Positions 26,497 through 32,075 of a stretch of DNA of 38,236 nucleotides are shown one piece after another (positions within the stretch are counted from its first letter, which is position 1; the number at the start of each line of letters is the position of its first letter). The notes below the pieces were generated by a model, which ran no database searches, was not told the DNA's origin, and saw only the letters and a list, made by a program, of their open reading frames with translations. The stretch is from Herbiconiux sp. (GTDB taxonomy: Bacteria; Actinomycetota; Actinomycetes; Actinomycetales; Microbacteriaceae). The translations under genes and the position numbers were made by a program. Location of the stretch: contig NZ_JAHFUW010000043.1 in NCBI RefSeq assembly GCF_023264855.1, forward strand, positions 1 through 38,236. The letters run 5' to 3'.

Positions 26497-28584
26497 GTGG
26501 CATCACCGTCCGACTACTCTGCCCGGCACTTGTCCGTTCTCGAGGGACTCGAGGCTGTTCGCAAACGCCCCGGCATGTACATCGGCTCCACCGACTCCCG
26601 CGGTCTCATGCACTGCCTGTGGGAGATCATCGACAACTCGGTCGACGAGGCGCTCGGCGGCTTCGGCACGAGCATCGACGTGGTGCTGCACTCCGACGGC
26701 AGCGTCGAGGTGCGCGACACCGCCCGCGGGGTGCCCGTCGACATCGAGCCGAAGACCGGTCTCTCCGGCGTCGAGGTGGTGTTCACCAAGCTGCACGCCG
26801 GCGGCAAGTTCGGATCGGGTTCGTACGCCGCATCCGGTGGCCTGCACGGTGTGGGCGCTTCGGTGGTGAACGCGCTCTCCGAGCGGCTCGACGTGGAGGT
26901 CGACCGCGGCGGCAAGACCTGGGCGATGTCGTTCCACCGCGGCGAGCCCGGCATCTTCGACGACAAGGGCGCCGCCCCGAGCCCGGATGCGCCGTTCACG
27001 CCGTTCGAGAAGCGGAGCGAACTGCGCGTGGTCGGCAAGGTCGCCAAGGGCGTCACCGGCACCCGCGTGCGCTATTGGGCCGACCGGCAGATCTTCACCA
27101 AGGGTGCCGAGTTCCAGACCGACGACCTCTTGGTGCGCGCGCGCCAGACCGCCTTCCTCGTGCCGGGCCTCGCCATCACCATCGACGACGAGCGCGGTGA
27201 GGAGCCCCGCCGCGAGTCGTTCCGCTTCGACGGCGGCATCTCCGAGTTCGCGGAGTACCTGGCTCCGGATGCCCCGCTCACCGACATCTGGCGCATCACC
27301 GGAACGGGCGAGTTCAAAGAGACCGTCCCCGTGCTCTCGGATCACGGCGCGATGGTGCCCACCGAGCTCACCCGCGAGGCGACGGTCGATGTGGCCCTGC
27401 GCTGGGGCATCGGCTACGAGACCTCGTTCCGCAGCTTCGTGAACATCATCTCGACGCCCAAGGGCGGCACCCATCAGGCCGGCTTCGAGGCCGGGCTGCT
27501 GAAGTTCCTGCGCACCAACGTCGAGGCGAACGCCCGGCGGCTGAAGGTGGGCAACGACAAGCTGGAGAAGGACGACGTGCTCGCCGGCCTCACGGCCGTG
27601 CTCACCGTGCGCCTGCCCGAGCCGCAGTTCGAGGGCCAGACCAAGGAGATCCTCGGTACGCCCGCGGTGCGGAACATCGTCTCGCAGGTGCTCACGAAGG
27701 GCCTCGCGGAGCGATTCACCTCACCGAAGCGCGACGACAAGGCGCAGTCGGCGCTCATCCTCGACAAGGTCGTGGCCGAGATGAAGTCACGCATCTCGGC
27801 GCGGGCGCACAAGGAGACGCAGCGCCGCAAGAACGCGCTGGAGTCCTCCTCGCTGCCCGCGAAACTGGTCGACTGCCGCTCCTCCGACGTGACGAACAGC
27901 GAGCTGTTCATCGTGGAGGGCGACTCGGCGCTCGGCACCGCCAAGCTGGCGCGCAACAGCGAGTTCCAGGCGCTGCTGCCGATCCGGGGCAAGATCCTGA
28001 ACGTGCAGAAGGCGTCGATCGCCGACATGCTCTCCAACGCCGAGTGCGCCTCGATCATCCAGGTGATCGGCGCCGGATCGGGCCGATCCTTCGACCTCTC
28101 GGCCGCGCGCTACGGCAAGATCATCCTGATGAGCGACGCCGACGTCGACGGCGCGCACATCCGCACCCTGCTGCTCACGCTGTTCTTCCGGTACATGCGG
28201 CCGCTGATCGAAGACGGCCGGGTTTACGCGGCGGTTCCGCCGCTGCACCGCGTGGTGGCGATCAACCCCGGATCCAAGCCGAACGAGACGATCTATACCT
28301 ACTCCGAGGCGGAGCTGCAGGGCGTGCTCGCGCAGCTGAAGAGGTCGAACCGCAAGTACCAGGATCCGATCCAGCGCTACAAGGGCCTCGGCGAGATGGA
28401 TGCCGACCAGCTGGCCTCCACCACGATGGACAAGCGCTACCGCACCCTGCGCCGGGTCGGCGTGGCCGATGCCGCGGTGGCCGAGAAGATGTTCGAACTC
28501 CTGATGGGCGACGACGTCGCCCCCCGCAAGGAGTTCATCATCACCGGCTCCGAGACGATGTCCCGAGACCGCATCGACGTCTGA
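26497..28584 (+). CDS. parE: DNA topoisomerase IV subunit B
   Basis: 695 residues, starting at a GTG with AAGGAG 7 nt upstream. The GHKL ATPase domain has RKRPGMYIGS (22-31), LWEIIDNSVDEAL with catalytic Glu43 and Asn47, DTARGVP (74-80), and the lid GSYAASGGLHGVGASVVNAL. The toprim domain has EGDSALGTAKLAR, LPIRGKILNV and the metal motif DADVDGAHIRTLLLTLF. Gly75-equivalent of the DxGxG motif is Ala76 here. With ParC it forms topoisomerase IV. It is assigned as ParE rather than GyrB by length (no long insert) and by the parC partner nearby; a separate gyrBA would be expected near the replication origin. It converges with gatD, with 24 bp between stops and no obvious hairpin. Confidence 0.94.
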   Translation: MASPSDYSARHLSVLEGLEAVRKRPGMYIGSTDSRGLMHCLWEIIDNSVDEALGGFGTSIDVVLHSDGSVEVRDTARGVPVDIEPKTGLSGVEVVFTKLHAGGKFGSGSYAASGGLHGVGASVVNALSERLDVEVDRGGKTWAMSFHRGEPGIFDDKGAAPSPDAPFTPFEKRSELRVVGKVAKGVTGTRVRYWADRQIFTKGAEFQTDDLLVRARQTAFLVPGLAITIDDERGEEPRRESFRFDGGISEFAEYLAPDAPLTDIWRITGTGEFKETVPVLSDHGAMVPTELTREATVDVALRWGIGYETSFRSFVNIISTPKGGTHQAGFEAGLLKFLRTNVEANARRLKVGNDKLEKDDVLAGLTAVLTVRLPEPQFEGQTKEILGTPAVRNIVSQVLTKGLAERFTSPKRDDKAQSALILDKVVAEMKSRISARAHKETQRRKNALESSSLPAKLVDCRSSDVTNSELFIVEGDSALGTAKLARNSEFQALLPIRGKILNVQKASIADMLSNAECASIIQVIGAGSGRSFDLSAARYGKIILMSDADVDGAHIRTLLLTLFFRYMRPLIEDGRVYAAVPPLHRVVAINPGSKPNETIYTYSEAELQGVLAQLKRSNRKYQDPIQRYKGLGEMDADQLASTTMDKRYRTLRRVGVADAAVAEKMFELLMGDDVAPRKEFIITGSETMSRDRIDV

Positions 28585-28608: not shown

Positions 28609-29364
28609 CTATTCCGAGAGCGGGGCCGCGGCGATCGTGCCGCGGGCGTGGCGGGCGCGCTCGTCGATGGTGCGGAGCTCGCCGGGGTCGGGCGTGGTGT
28701 ACTCGAGGCCACGGCGGGCTCGCGCGGTGTCGAGCAGGGAGTCGGCCAGGATCGGGTTGTTCGCGAGGATCGGGCCGTGCATGTGGGTGCCGAGGAGGTT
28801 GTCCTCCCAGAAGCCCTCTTCGCCCGGGGTCTCGGTGTTGCCGCGCCCGTAGACCACGCGGCCGAGCGTGCCGTGCGGGCCGACGTCGACGAAGGATCCG
28901 CGGTTCTCGAAGCCGACGACCGGGCCGAGGCGGGGCGACTCCAGCACGAAGTCGCCGACGACGCGGGTGCCGCCGTGGCGGGTGGTGACTGGGAAGACGC
29001 CGGCGCCCTCGAGCACCTCGCCGCCCTCGAGCGTGATCCGCTCGCCGAGCAGCTGGAAGCCCGCGCCGATGGCGAGGAACGGCCGGCCGTCGGCGGCCAG
29101 CGCCTTCAGTTCGGGCGCGATCGCCACGACGAGCGGATGCGCGAGCAACTCGGCCGAGACCGGGCCGCTGCCGATGAACACCAGGTCGGCATCATCGAAG
29201 CTCTGAGGGGCTCCCCCGTCGTAGGTGGTGATCTCGACGGGCAGCCCGCGCCACTCCGCACGCAGGCGCAGGATCTCGACGTTGCCGCTCTCCCCGTTCA
29301 GGCCGAGCAGCCGCGGGAACAGGTGCAGGATGCGCAGGGCGTCGGTGACGGGTGTGCCGCTCAT
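28609..29364 (-). CDS. gatD: GatD-like class I glutamine amidotransferase lacking the catalytic cysteine
   Basis: 251 residues with the CobB/CobQ-type glutaminase fold seen in GatD: LHLFPRLLGLNGESGNVEIL at the N-terminus, VFIGSGPVS (oxyanion region), and GTHMHGPILANNPILAD with the expected catalytic histidine (His196). Canonical GatD has a nucleophilic cysteine in an ICGG/VCAG-type elbow before FQLLG. Here the elbow reads LAIGAGFQLLG, so position 100 is glycine; the codon is GGC (plus-strand 29065-29067 region). The whole protein has no cysteine. It should not be able to hydrolyse glutamine by the known mechanism. It overlaps the murT stop by 4 nt (ATGA), so it still pairs with MurT. Family assignment is strong; loss of glutaminase activity is inferred. 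Confidence 0.9.
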   Translation of the reverse strand: MSGTPVTDALRILHLFPRLLGLNGESGNVEILRLRAEWRGLPVEITTYDGGAPQSFDDADLVFIGSGPVSAELLAHPLVVAIAPELKALAADGRPFLAIGAGFQLLGERITLEGGEVLEGAGVFPVTTRHGGTRVVGDFVLESPRLGPVVGFENRGSFVDVGPHGTLGRVVYGRGNTETPGEEGFWEDNLLGTHMHGPILANNPILADSLLDTARARRGLEYTTPDPGELRTIDERARHARGTIAAAPLSE

Positions 29365-30701
29365 GCCGCTCCCCCGCCCTCGAGCTCTTTGAAACCCAGG
29401 ATCTTTCGGATCAGCATCATCTGCTCGTAGTTCAGGATCATCACCTTGTGTCCGGTGGCGGGCTTCGGGCGCGCGAGGAACTCCTTCAGGGCCTTGCGCA
29501 CGTCGAGGTCGACCGACCCGACCGGGATGTCGAGGTAGCCGAAGCGCACGGCGAACTGCCACGCCTTCGATCCGGTGATCCCGTCGACGTGGTCGAGCGC
29601 CGAGAAGTCGATGTCGTAGATCCAGGCCGGATCGGGCGTTCCCTCGTCGACCGCGAGGAAGACCTGCTCGGGAGCACTCTCGAGCGAGTCGAGGTTCAGC
29701 TGCAGCGAGGCCGGGTTCTTCATCATGATGATCTCGATCTGCTCGCCGTCGACCTCGAGCAGCTCGCCACGCCCGTAGACGGTCTCGAGCGAGTCGAGGG
29801 CCTGCGAGACCAGCTCGGGCCGGAAGCGGTCGCCGAGCACGCTGCGCGCTGCAGCTGCGGCACCGGCGGCGTCGAGCGCGTAGTGCATGCCTCTCGCGGG
29901 GAGCTTGACCTGGATCTCGGTGCGCTGGGCCGCCGGTGCATCCGCCACCGGCGAGCCGGCGGGCAGCGCTGCGGCCTCGATCGAGAGCGTGGCGCGTGCC
30001 CCGTCGAGGGCGATCACCTCGACCGCGGCGGGACGCGATCCGGGCTCGGCACCGACGTCGCCGAAGCGGTCGGCGGAGGCCACGCCGTGGCTCGCGCCGT
30101 CGACCAGGCTCGGTACGCCCCCGAAGAAGCTCACCGCCCGGCCCGGTCGGCCCGGGATGCGCGTGTCGAGGTCGACCAGGAAGTTGTCCTCACGATTGAG
30201 GATGAGCCCGTCGGTCGACGCCGCAGCCACCCGGCCGAGCATCACGGCGACGCGATCCGGCTCGTGGTATCGGTTCAGCTGGTCGATCTGGATGTTCAGC
30301 AGCAGCACCGTGCGCGGCTTCAGCAGCTCGGCGAGCCGGGTGCCGTACCCCTCGTCCACCTCGAGGATGGCGATGTCGGAGTCCAGCCGCCCGCTGGTGG
30401 AGACCTCGGAGAGCAGCGCCGAGGCGATGCCCTGCGGCAGGTTTCCGCCCGAGGGGTTCGTGAAGACCTTCAGGCCGTGGGCCCGGATGATCGCGGCCAG
30501 CATGTTGGTGGTGGTCGACTTGCCGTTCGATCCGGAGACCGCGACGACGCCATCCGGAATCCGGGCGATGGTGCGCTCGAGAAAACCGGGGTCGATCTTC
30601 AGAGCGATGTTGCCGGGGATGGCCGAGCCGCCGCCGCGCAAGCGCGCGGCGACCCGGACGGCCCGTCCGACGAGGACGGCGGCCGTGGTGCGGAGGGCCA
30701 T
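29361..30701 (-). CDS. murT: MurT-like Mur ligase domain protein (lipid II D-Glu modifying subunit)
   Basis: 446 residues. The Mur ligase ATP site is VSGSNGKSTTTN (55-66), with NPSGGNLPQGIASALL (82-97) and NIQIDQLNRYHEPDR (136-150) after it. The C-terminal DUF1727 domain has MMKNPASLQLNLD (326-338) and DPAWIYDIDF (357-366), where Asp357 matches the region of the conserved catalytic Asp. Canonical MurT carries a four-cysteine zinc ribbon in the middle domain; this protein has no cysteine anywhere, and the corresponding stretch (about 190-225) is a Gly/Ala/Pro loop. The ATG is 4 nt after the sigA stop, so it is likely read through from sigA. MurT-GatD normally converts D-Glu of lipid II to D-isoglutamine in the cytoplasm. 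Confidence 0.9.
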   Translation of the reverse strand: MALRTTAAVLVGRAVRVAARLRGGGSAIPGNIALKIDPGFLERTIARIPDGVVAVSGSNGKSTTTNMLAAIIRAHGLKVFTNPSGGNLPQGIASALLSEVSTSGRLDSDIAILEVDEGYGTRLAELLKPRTVLLLNIQIDQLNRYHEPDRVAVMLGRVAAASTDGLILNREDNFLVDLDTRIPGRPGRAVSFFGGVPSLVDGASHGVASADRFGDVGAEPGSRPAAVEVIALDGARATLSIEAAALPAGSPVADAPAAQRTEIQVKLPARGMHYALDAAGAAAAARSVLGDRFRPELVSQALDSLETVYGRGELLEVDGEQIEIIMMKNPASLQLNLDSLESAPEQVFLAVDEGTPDPAWIYDIDFSALDHVDGITGSKAWQFAVRFGYLDIPVGSVDLDVRKALKEFLARPKPATGHKVMILNYEQMMLIRKILGFKELEGGGAA

Positions 30702-30705
30702 CGGC

Positions 30706-31995
30706 CTACTCGAGGTAGTCGCGCAGCGACTGCGAGCGGGACGGGTGGCGAAGCTTCGCCATGGTCTTCGACTCGATCTGACGGATGCGCTCGCGCGTCA
30801 CACCGAAGGTGTCACCGATCTGGTCGAGCGTCTTGGGCATGCCGTCGCCGAGCCCGAAGCGCATCCGGATGACGCCGGCCTCGCGCTCGGAGAGCGAGTC
30901 GAGCAGCGACTCCAGCTGCTTCTGCAGCATCGTGAAGCCCACCGCGTCGGCCGGAACGACCGCTTCGGTGTCTTCGATCAGGTCGCCGAACTCGCTGTCG
31001 CCGTCTTCACCCAGTGGGGTGTGCAGGGAGATGGGCTCGCGGCCGTACTTCTGCACCTCGACCACCTTCTCGGGCGTCATGTCGAGTTCGCGGCTGAGCT
31101 CTTCGGGCGTGGGCTCACGACCCAGGTCTTGCAGCATCTGGCGCTGCACGCGGGCCAGCTTGTTGATGACCTCGACCATGTGCACCGGGATGCGGATGGT
31201 GCGCGCCTGGTCGGCCATCGCACGGGTGATGGCCTGACGGATCCACCAGGTGGCATAGGTCGAGAACTTGAAGCCCTTGGTGTAGTCGAACTTCTCGACC
31301 GCACGGATCAGGCCCAGGTTGCCCTCCTGGATCAGGTCGAGGAACTGCATTCCGCGGCCGGTGTAGCGCTTGGCGAGCGACACGACCAGGCGGAGGTTCG
31401 CGCCGAGCAGGTGGCTCTTGGCGCGCTGGCCGTCTTTCGCGACCCACTGCAGCTCACGCTTGGCGGAGGGGCTGAGGTTGTCGGTGTTCGCCAGCTTGTC
31501 TTCGGCGAACAGACCCGCCTCGATGCGCATGGCGAGCTCGACCTCTTCGGCCGCGTTCAGCAGTGCGACCTTTCCGATCTGCTTGAGGTAATCCTTCACC
31601 GGGTCAGCGGTGGCGCCCGTGATCGTGGAGGAATAGACCGGCACGTCGTCTTCGTCGTCGACCAGCGAGAGCACGAGTGCACCGGTGGGCAGTGTCTCCG
31701 CGACGGCGGCGGGCTTGACCTTGCCGCCTTCTTCGGTATCGGAGGACTCGTCGTCGGACACCGCTTCGGTGTCGTCGGCGACCTCTTCGACGACGTCGAC
31801 CTCCGCCTCGTCGCCGGGCTCGATCTCCTCGTCGTCGTCGTCCGACTTCGCCTTGGCCTTCGTGGCGCGCTTGGGGGCCGCCTTGGCGGCGGTCTTCTTC
31901 GCCGGAGCGCGCTTGGCCGGAGCCTTCGCGGCCGGCGCGACCTCGTCAGGCGCCGTTGCCTGCTCGAGTGTGTCTGCGGTCTTGGGGGTGGCCAT
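30706..31995 (-). CDS. sigA: Principal RNA polymerase sigma factor
   Basis: 429 residues from the ATG at 31995, with AAAGGTGA 5 nt upstream. A basic Lys/Ala/Pro stretch (22-50) and an acidic stretch (51-90) form the N-terminus. Then: region 1.2 ([20 protein letters not shown], 131-150), region 2 with [20 protein letters not shown] and the -10 reader [17 protein letters not shown] (244-260), region 3, and region 4.2 [20 protein letters not shown] (389-408), ending LRDYLE. This is the group 1 sigma factor that directs housekeeping transcription. Its -10 preference (TANNNT) fits the promoters seen across the window. It is followed 4 nt later by murT, implying a sigA-murT-gatD transcript. Confidence 0.97.
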
Positions 31996-32075
31996 TAGTT
32001 CACCTTTCATGCCACACGGGGAACCCGGGGCGATGGTGTCAGCCCTGGCGAAACGTCCGCCGCGTGAAGATGTTT

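Follow-up and report, generated by a model that had tools for sequence, protein, structure and literature searches.

A MurT–GatD pair lacking the glutaminase cysteine as a candidate group B peptidoglycan bridge ligase in Microbacteriaceae

Described relatives and the Herbiconiux pair

The closest described relatives of the gene pair examined here are the MurT/GatD lipid II amidases of Staphylococcus aureus and Streptococcus pneumoniae, whose glutaminase triad takes Cys and His from GatD and Asp from MurT. A murT–gatD pair in a 38,236-nucleotide stretch of Herbiconiux sp. DNA (contig NZ_JAHFUW010000043.1; hereafter the window) shares with these the two protein families, the gene order, the fold and the ATP and carboxylate residues, but it and most of its Microbacteriaceae counterparts lack the Cys nucleophile and often the triad His or Asp, carry a changed donor-side loop in MurT and occupy a fixed slot between rpoD and parE. 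With a probability of about three in four, this cysteine-less pair (a term used here for any pair without the GatD nucleophile Cys) would be a ligase joining the first bridge amino acid to the alpha-carboxyl of D-Glu in group B peptidoglycan, with GatD as a non-catalytic subunit.

The interpeptide bridges of group A are built by the tRNA-dependent Fem/MurM enzymes, which differ from this pair in fold and chemistry and act on residue 3. CofE (F420-0:glutamate ligase, PF01996) represents a family of enzymes linking amino acids to carboxylates, and the gene replacing the pair in the slot of some genomes is CofE-like, although the pair itself is of a different protein family. If the proposed role is right, the pair would also resemble MurE/MurF-type ligases, in which an acyl phosphate meets an amino acid amine, and the AlphaFold model of the window MurT (predicted local distance difference test score, pLDDT, 81.2) resembles MurC and MurF as well as MurT structures. 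It would differ from MurE/MurF in acting presumably on the D-Glu alpha-carboxyl of a lipid-linked stem, in having a GatD-fold partner and in the absence of the UDP-binding domain, as reported for MurT (PMC6113224).

By sequence, the window proteins fall within the MurT and GatD families, GatD matching GATase_3 (PF07685, 6e-20) and MurT matching the Mur ligase middle domain (PF08245, 9.6e-10) and MurT_C (PF08353, 3.6e-7), and their closest sequence relatives in the Protein Data Bank (PDB) are the S. aureus and Streptococcus proteins. Both fall well below the NCBIfam equivalog cut-offs (GatD, 143 versus 450 and 91.5 versus 400 bits; MurT, 105.8 and 100 bits versus 800). The GatD model (pLDDT 88.3) has S. 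aureus GatD as its top PDB matches (6gs2_A and 5n9m_A; TMq 0.82 and 0.86; 34% identity). The nucleophile elbow of the window GatD reads LAIGAGFQLLG, placing Gly100 opposite the S. aureus Cys in an alignment without nearby gaps, and neither protein contains a single Cys. The triad is incomplete, with Gly100 in place of Cys and with GatD His196 and MurT Asp363 present, and MurT Lys61, the KNP motif and the WIYD motif are also retained. An earlier note, made from the letters of the window, had described the Gly-for-Cys replacement, the absence of Cys from both proteins, the retained His196, Lys61, NP and WIYD motifs and the 4-nt gene overlap, all of which were confirmed. The note had also named a second intact gatD elsewhere in the genome as a finding that would refute its reading; none was found in this genome assembly (97 contigs, 95% complete), in which a broad GatD profile at E 1e-6 gave one match and two further PF07685 matches gave neither a GatD nor a MurT match.

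Loss of the nucleophile across families and the rpoD–parE slot

Microbacteriaceae were sampled as sets of 60 genomes (40 with a GatD match) and 130 genomes (106 with a MurT match) and a few more, the MurT search scoring only 13 candidates per genome, which makes its negatives insecure, and 23 genomes being searched again with the GatD profile. This gave 110 GatD genes, from 106 genomes and 65 genera, after repeats of genes already read (L001, L083-L086, L089-L092, L094, L096, L097, L102, L104-L106, L109 and L111) were left out, together with L002, L003 and L166, in which a contig end cuts gatD. The Cys is replaced in 95 of the 110, distributed over 58 genera, and retained in 15, so its loss in the window is not explained by an error in a single assembly. 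The replacing residue is Gly in 62 genes, Ala in 16, His in eight, Ser in four, Asn in four and Thr in one. These 95 loci also include 38 without the triad His and 48 without the MurT triad Asp; the full triad is kept in 15/15 Cys-bearing loci of the family and in 35/35 loci belonging to the order's other families. The P-loop Lys is present in all 111 Microbacteriaceae MurT loci read, and gatD stands beside murT in every one save L166. Outside the family but within the class, Cys and His are retained in 90 of the 92 GatD read. For the rest of the class, GatD was read in 57 of the 121 additional genomes with a match: Cys and His persist in 55, and two have Asp.

In a tree of 109 rows built from MurT alone, two changes account for the cysteine-less state, indicating that the glutaminase, as judged from these sequences, was lost twice. 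Type i, the clade of the window (35 rows; Shimodaira–Hasegawa-like approximate likelihood ratio test support 100), has a MurT without the zinc ribbon, and type ii (30 rows, 8 from Microbacteriaceae and 22 from Bacillota; support 99) has the ribbon; its GatD elbow reads, for example, FTHNALEVLG or ITGNALEIFG, and the triad His is missing. Type ii is common to Microbacteriaceae, Erysipelotrichales and Clostridia, and both clades use the rpoD–parE slot in Microbacteriaceae. The Bacillota loci read were the best-scoring of the match list, plus the weaker match in Merdibacter. In Erysipelotrichales, the order of Merdibacter massiliensis and Erysipelothrix, 105/196 genomes gave a profile match at E 1e-8 and 29 of the 30 best-scoring loci read are cysteine-less, L301 having Cys; the M. 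massiliensis pair (L269) also carries it. In Clostridia, 41/392 genomes match at E 1e-28 and the best 29 loci, all of those read, are cysteine-less. Vescimonas fastidiosa (NZ_AP023416) is a named Bacillota carrier. A contig scan with a generic P-loop pattern gave 47 loci, 28 of which (L175-L202) scored as MurT, and none of the Firmicutes it named is known for a group B wall.

The earlier note had also taken the missing zinc ribbon of MurT as part of the change, a claim that did not survive. Ribbon loss is ruled out as a marker of new function, as no CxxC pair was present in 24 of the 35 MurT loci read from Cys-bearing pairs of other families, and the second cysteine-less clade retains the ribbon. 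The ribbon has likewise been reported in only a subset of MurT (PMC6113224).

Residue conservation was compared in an alignment of 35 type i, 30 type ii, and 29 and 15 Cys-bearing MurT (window numbering). Eleven MurT residues are each retained by at least 90% of the sequences in either cysteine-less clade: Lys61, Asn82, Asn87, Glu114, Asp116, Glu117, Asn136, Asp140, Arg144, Asn169 and Arg311. Pneumococcal MurT needs its P-loop Lys, an Asn and an Asp-Glu pair (PMC6085368), and these, matched by motif, are among the 11. The residues of Cys-bearing MurT that fall below half in both clades are Gly332 after KNP, the N352-D354-G355 loop and Trp362 before the triad Asp. A DNAAD motif of MurT has been discussed for contact with the stem peptide (PMC6113224), and the changed loop appears to overlap it. 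In GatD, Cys100, Gly66, Asp69 and Gln104 fall below half, and 13 positions are kept at 80% or more in both clades. Nei-Gojobori omega for the cysteine-less GatD is 0.08-0.34 in 21 close pairs, compared with 0.18-0.20 in three Cys-bearing pairs. Both genes are under selection.

The order in the slot is rpoD, murT, gatD and then parE (Table 1). Either rpoD or parE adjoins 92 of the 95 cysteine-less pairs, and, in the stretches fetched, neither adjoins any of the 15 Cys-bearing family pairs or any of the 35 pairs from outside the family. The three off-slot exceptions are L148, L164 (genus g52) and L165. Inspection by eye of the neighbourhoods of the Cys-bearing family pairs revealed nothing related to wall bridges. 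Outside the family, parE follows rpoD by <0.8 kb in G099 and by ~1.1 kb in G066, and was not found within 7 kb of rpoD in G093 and G108.

Several pairs have unusual settings. L148 (G210:C3) is a second type i pair, in a genome that also has a slot pair. L165 (G005:C25) is a Firmicute-like type ii pair in a low-GC stretch (41.5% GC) of a small family genome, next to a gene that, by eye, resembles HsdS. L303, on the Leifsonia shinshuensis plasmid NZ_CP043642.1 (5932-8881), is a Cys-intact MurT–GatD pair adjoining an M15 peptidase gene (weakly VanY-like), a hint that Microbacteriaceae may acquire intact amidase pairs on mobile DNA.

Table 1. Positions in the window of the murT–gatD pair, its key codons and the genes bordering the slot
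Feature	Position	Strand	Description	Basis
gatD	28609..29364	-	GatD-fold pseudo-glutaminase, 251 aa, no Cys	sequence, Pfam, alignment
Gly100 codon GGC	29065..29067	-	position of the catalytic Cys	sequence and alignment to S. aureus GatD
His196 codon	28777..28779	-	former triad His	sequence
murT	29361..30701	-	446-aa Mur-ligase subunit without zinc ribbon; retains the ligase residues	
MurT Lys61 codon	30519..30521	-	P-loop Lys	sequence
ATGA overlap	29361..29364	-	4 nt, murT stop/gatD start	sequence
rpoD	30706..32010	-	principal sigma factor; immediately precedes murT and identifies the slot	sequence, synteny
parE	26497..28584	+	topoisomerase subunit; far border of the slot, facing gatD	sequence, synteny

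Exchange with a CofE-like ligase and the proposed link to group B walls

The cysteine-less pair and a CofE-like ligase nearly exclude each other in Microbacteriaceae. Among the 130 genomes, 106 have MurT, 20 have a CofE-like gene, two have both and six have neither (Fisher test, 4.5e-15), so that the CofE-like gene stands in for MurT in 18. Slots were fetched in 22 family genomes without a MurT match, and 17 of them hold a CofE-like gene (PF01996), accompanied by an ATPgrasp_ST-like gene in 15 and by Alr-like genes in 11; the other five comprise two short gaps, two ABC transporters (genus g48) and one contig end. Seven genera (g7, g9, g56, g57, g60, g61 and g124) have MurT and CofE-like genes in different species, and in five of these (g7, g9, g56, g57 and g61) the slot was read on both sides of the swap. 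The CofE-like slot protein of L241 scores 50.1 bits against PF01996 (cut-off 25), but only 34.8 bits against the F420 CofE model TIGR01916 (cut-off 180.65). Outside Microbacteriaceae, CofE-like genes occur in 6/246 genomes (f12, f34 and f36), and two of the three such loci examined adjoin, by eye, an apparent asparagine synthase, a context different from that of the slot.

Racemase, transaminase and ATP-grasp genes are among the neighbours. An EctB-type diaminobutyrate transaminase is present in two of the CofE-like slots, L238 and L247 (the latter tested), and another abuts a type ii pair in an Oscillospiraceae genome of the Clostridia (L176). ATPgrasp_ST-like genes adjoin cysteine-less pairs in L066, L157-L159 and L162; in Erysipelotrichales (L284) and Clostridia (L272) such a gene comes straight after the pair. 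Other neighbours are genes for MurJ (L239), PAP2 (L297) and an Asp/Glu racemase-like protein (L289), and flippase-like genes in L283, L286 (by eye) and L304 (annotated). Tandem Alr-like genes, one apparently reduced, lie downstream of the pair or of cofE in L010, L014, L024, L115, L243, L251 and others; judging from sequence, they possibly form a heteromeric racemase for a bridge diamino acid. In genus g52 (L163, L164 and L174), the only genomes found with both systems, a CofE-like gene directly precedes an aberrant cysteine-less pair with the elbow FGTSIALF or FGTSVALF, and the racemase pair follows in L174. The rpoD–parE gap of L257 and L258 (g48) holds an apparent ABC amino-acid transporter and gave no MurT–GatD or CofE-like match.

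Group B walls are a long-standing taxonomic character (Schleifer and Kandler 1972); Erysipelothrix has such a wall, and the bridge of Clavibacter nebraskensis is a single residue. The cysteine-less pair was found in two species with a published B-type wall, Rhodoluna lacicola MWH-Ta8 (G010, locus L138; PMC4156110), in which B2beta was determined, and Clavibacter (michiganensis subsp.) nebraskensis (G034, locus L008; PMC5358740), C. michiganensis having a B2gamma wall with diaminobutyrate (Dab) (PMC5358740). B2 walls are also reported in Subtercola, Agreia and Frondihabitans (PMC5945732). Among the matches listed in the open-licence literature searched, no enzyme is named for the bridge bond at D-Glu and a cysteine-less MurT/GatD pair is not proposed as a bridge ligase. 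The parts of that literature bearing on MurT/GatD call the murT/gatD operon universal in Actinobacteria with no mention of Cys loss (PMC6085368), or treat MurT phylogeny with no treatment of a Cys-less pair (PMC11915815, PMC12786226).

Proposed reaction and competing explanations

The transition from lipid II amidase to amino-acid ligase would have involved the loss of glutamine cleavage by GatD, which would persist as a bound subunit shaping or shielding the amine site, while MurT would still spend ATP to convert the alpha-carboxyl of D-Glu2 to an acyl phosphate. The nucleophile would no longer be glutamine-derived ammonia: the first bridge amino acid, either glycine or a diamino acid such as D-Dab, D-ornithine or Lys, would attack through its amine, giving the amide that defines group B cross-links. 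Which carboxyl and which amine take part, and what GatD does, are inferred. This reading is preferred because of the family-wide Cys loss, the two origins, the fixed slot, the CofE-like swap and the racemase, transaminase and ATP-grasp neighbours. The same genomic evidence gives good support to the central idea of the earlier note, a pair turned to group B walls that ligates an amine instead of amidating with glutamine; its ribbon argument fell away and the link to the family is incomplete. A wider scheme also appears probable, if rather less so, in which the pair founds the group B cross-link, arose at least twice from an amidase, serves both Actinomycetota and Bacillota and is interchangeable with the CofE-like ligase at an rpoD–parE island that makes the bridge amino acid.

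In vitro, the C94G, C94S and MurT-D349N changes abolish or severely reduce amidation by the S. aureus complex (PMC6113224), and, as C94G does not amidate, the window pair is not expected to use glutamine for amidation. An amidase fed by free ammonia, in which MurT would still make isoglutamine and GatD would be a structural partner only, is conceivable because S. aureus MurT/GatD accepts ammonia at pH 8.5 with GatD still required (PMC6085368). This explanation is unlikely, as it accounts neither for the CofE-like swap and the racemase, transaminase and ATP-grasp neighbours nor for the presence of the pair in species with published B-type walls, and three genomes hold a Cys-bearing pair besides the cysteine-less one. 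Only slightly less doubtful is a division of labour in which the D-Glu bridge bond is formed by the CofE-like or ATP-grasp enzyme in genomes that have one, leaving another wall ligation to the pair, such as that of a second bridge residue or a glycine cap. The ATPgrasp_ST genes adjoining both cassettes and the co-occurrence of both systems in genus g52 agree with this, but many slots hold murT–gatD alone, including that of C. nebraskensis (L008), and 104 of the 106 MurT genomes have no CofE-like match. It could further be argued that GatD is useless and on its way out, given the variety of residues replacing Cys and an omega higher in GatD than in MurT in 19 of 21 cysteine-less pairs. Such decay is very improbable in view of the 58 genera, the 13 conserved GatD positions and the good fold model, and pseudogene decay is ruled out by the GatD omega values.

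Several observations weigh against a bridge ligase. The triad His is retained in 57/95 and the triad Asp in 47/95 cysteine-less copies, both of them in the window. The pair is also not universal in Microbacteriaceae, where Cys-only, CofE-like-only and neither genomes exist. The expectation that Cys loss tracks the family held for the 95 of 110 genes, but 12 genomes from nine genera have a Cys-bearing pair only, a pattern that the earlier note had named as refuting where the species have group B walls; in these the slot is without a gene pair, parE beginning <0.8 kb after rpoD, and they include Aurantimicrobium minutum KNC (G058; PMC4929513). Genus g16 is split between G189, with a cysteine-less slot pair, and G016, with a Cys pair only. 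Three genomes (G053, G212 and G161) carry a cysteine-less slot pair and a Cys-bearing pair elsewhere, and therefore both must share or split the D-Glu carboxyl. Six of the 130 genomes have neither MurT nor a CofE-like gene, five of them after a further search with the GatD profile; no GatD match was found in G009, G012 and G022 (86-88% complete). Outside the family, the GatD of L391 and L392 (G480 and G450; family f39) has Asp at the nucleophile (AVDAGMAAL), a possible third loss. The wall type of nearly all carriers other than R. lacicola and C. nebraskensis is inferred from family membership, and the genome paper of Pontimonas salivibrio CL-TW6 (G030) infers direct cross-links from genes and describes no enzymology of a pentaglycine bridge (PMC6106888).

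If the bridge-ligase reading is true, the pair provides a candidate ligase for the group B bond, with two origins and an alternative CofE-like route, and a gene by which group B walls could be recognised in genomes and metagenome-assembled genomes. It would also represent an amidotransferase that became an amino-acid ligase through the loss of its glutaminase, and annotating the cysteine-less pair of Microbacteriaceae as an amidase would mislead.

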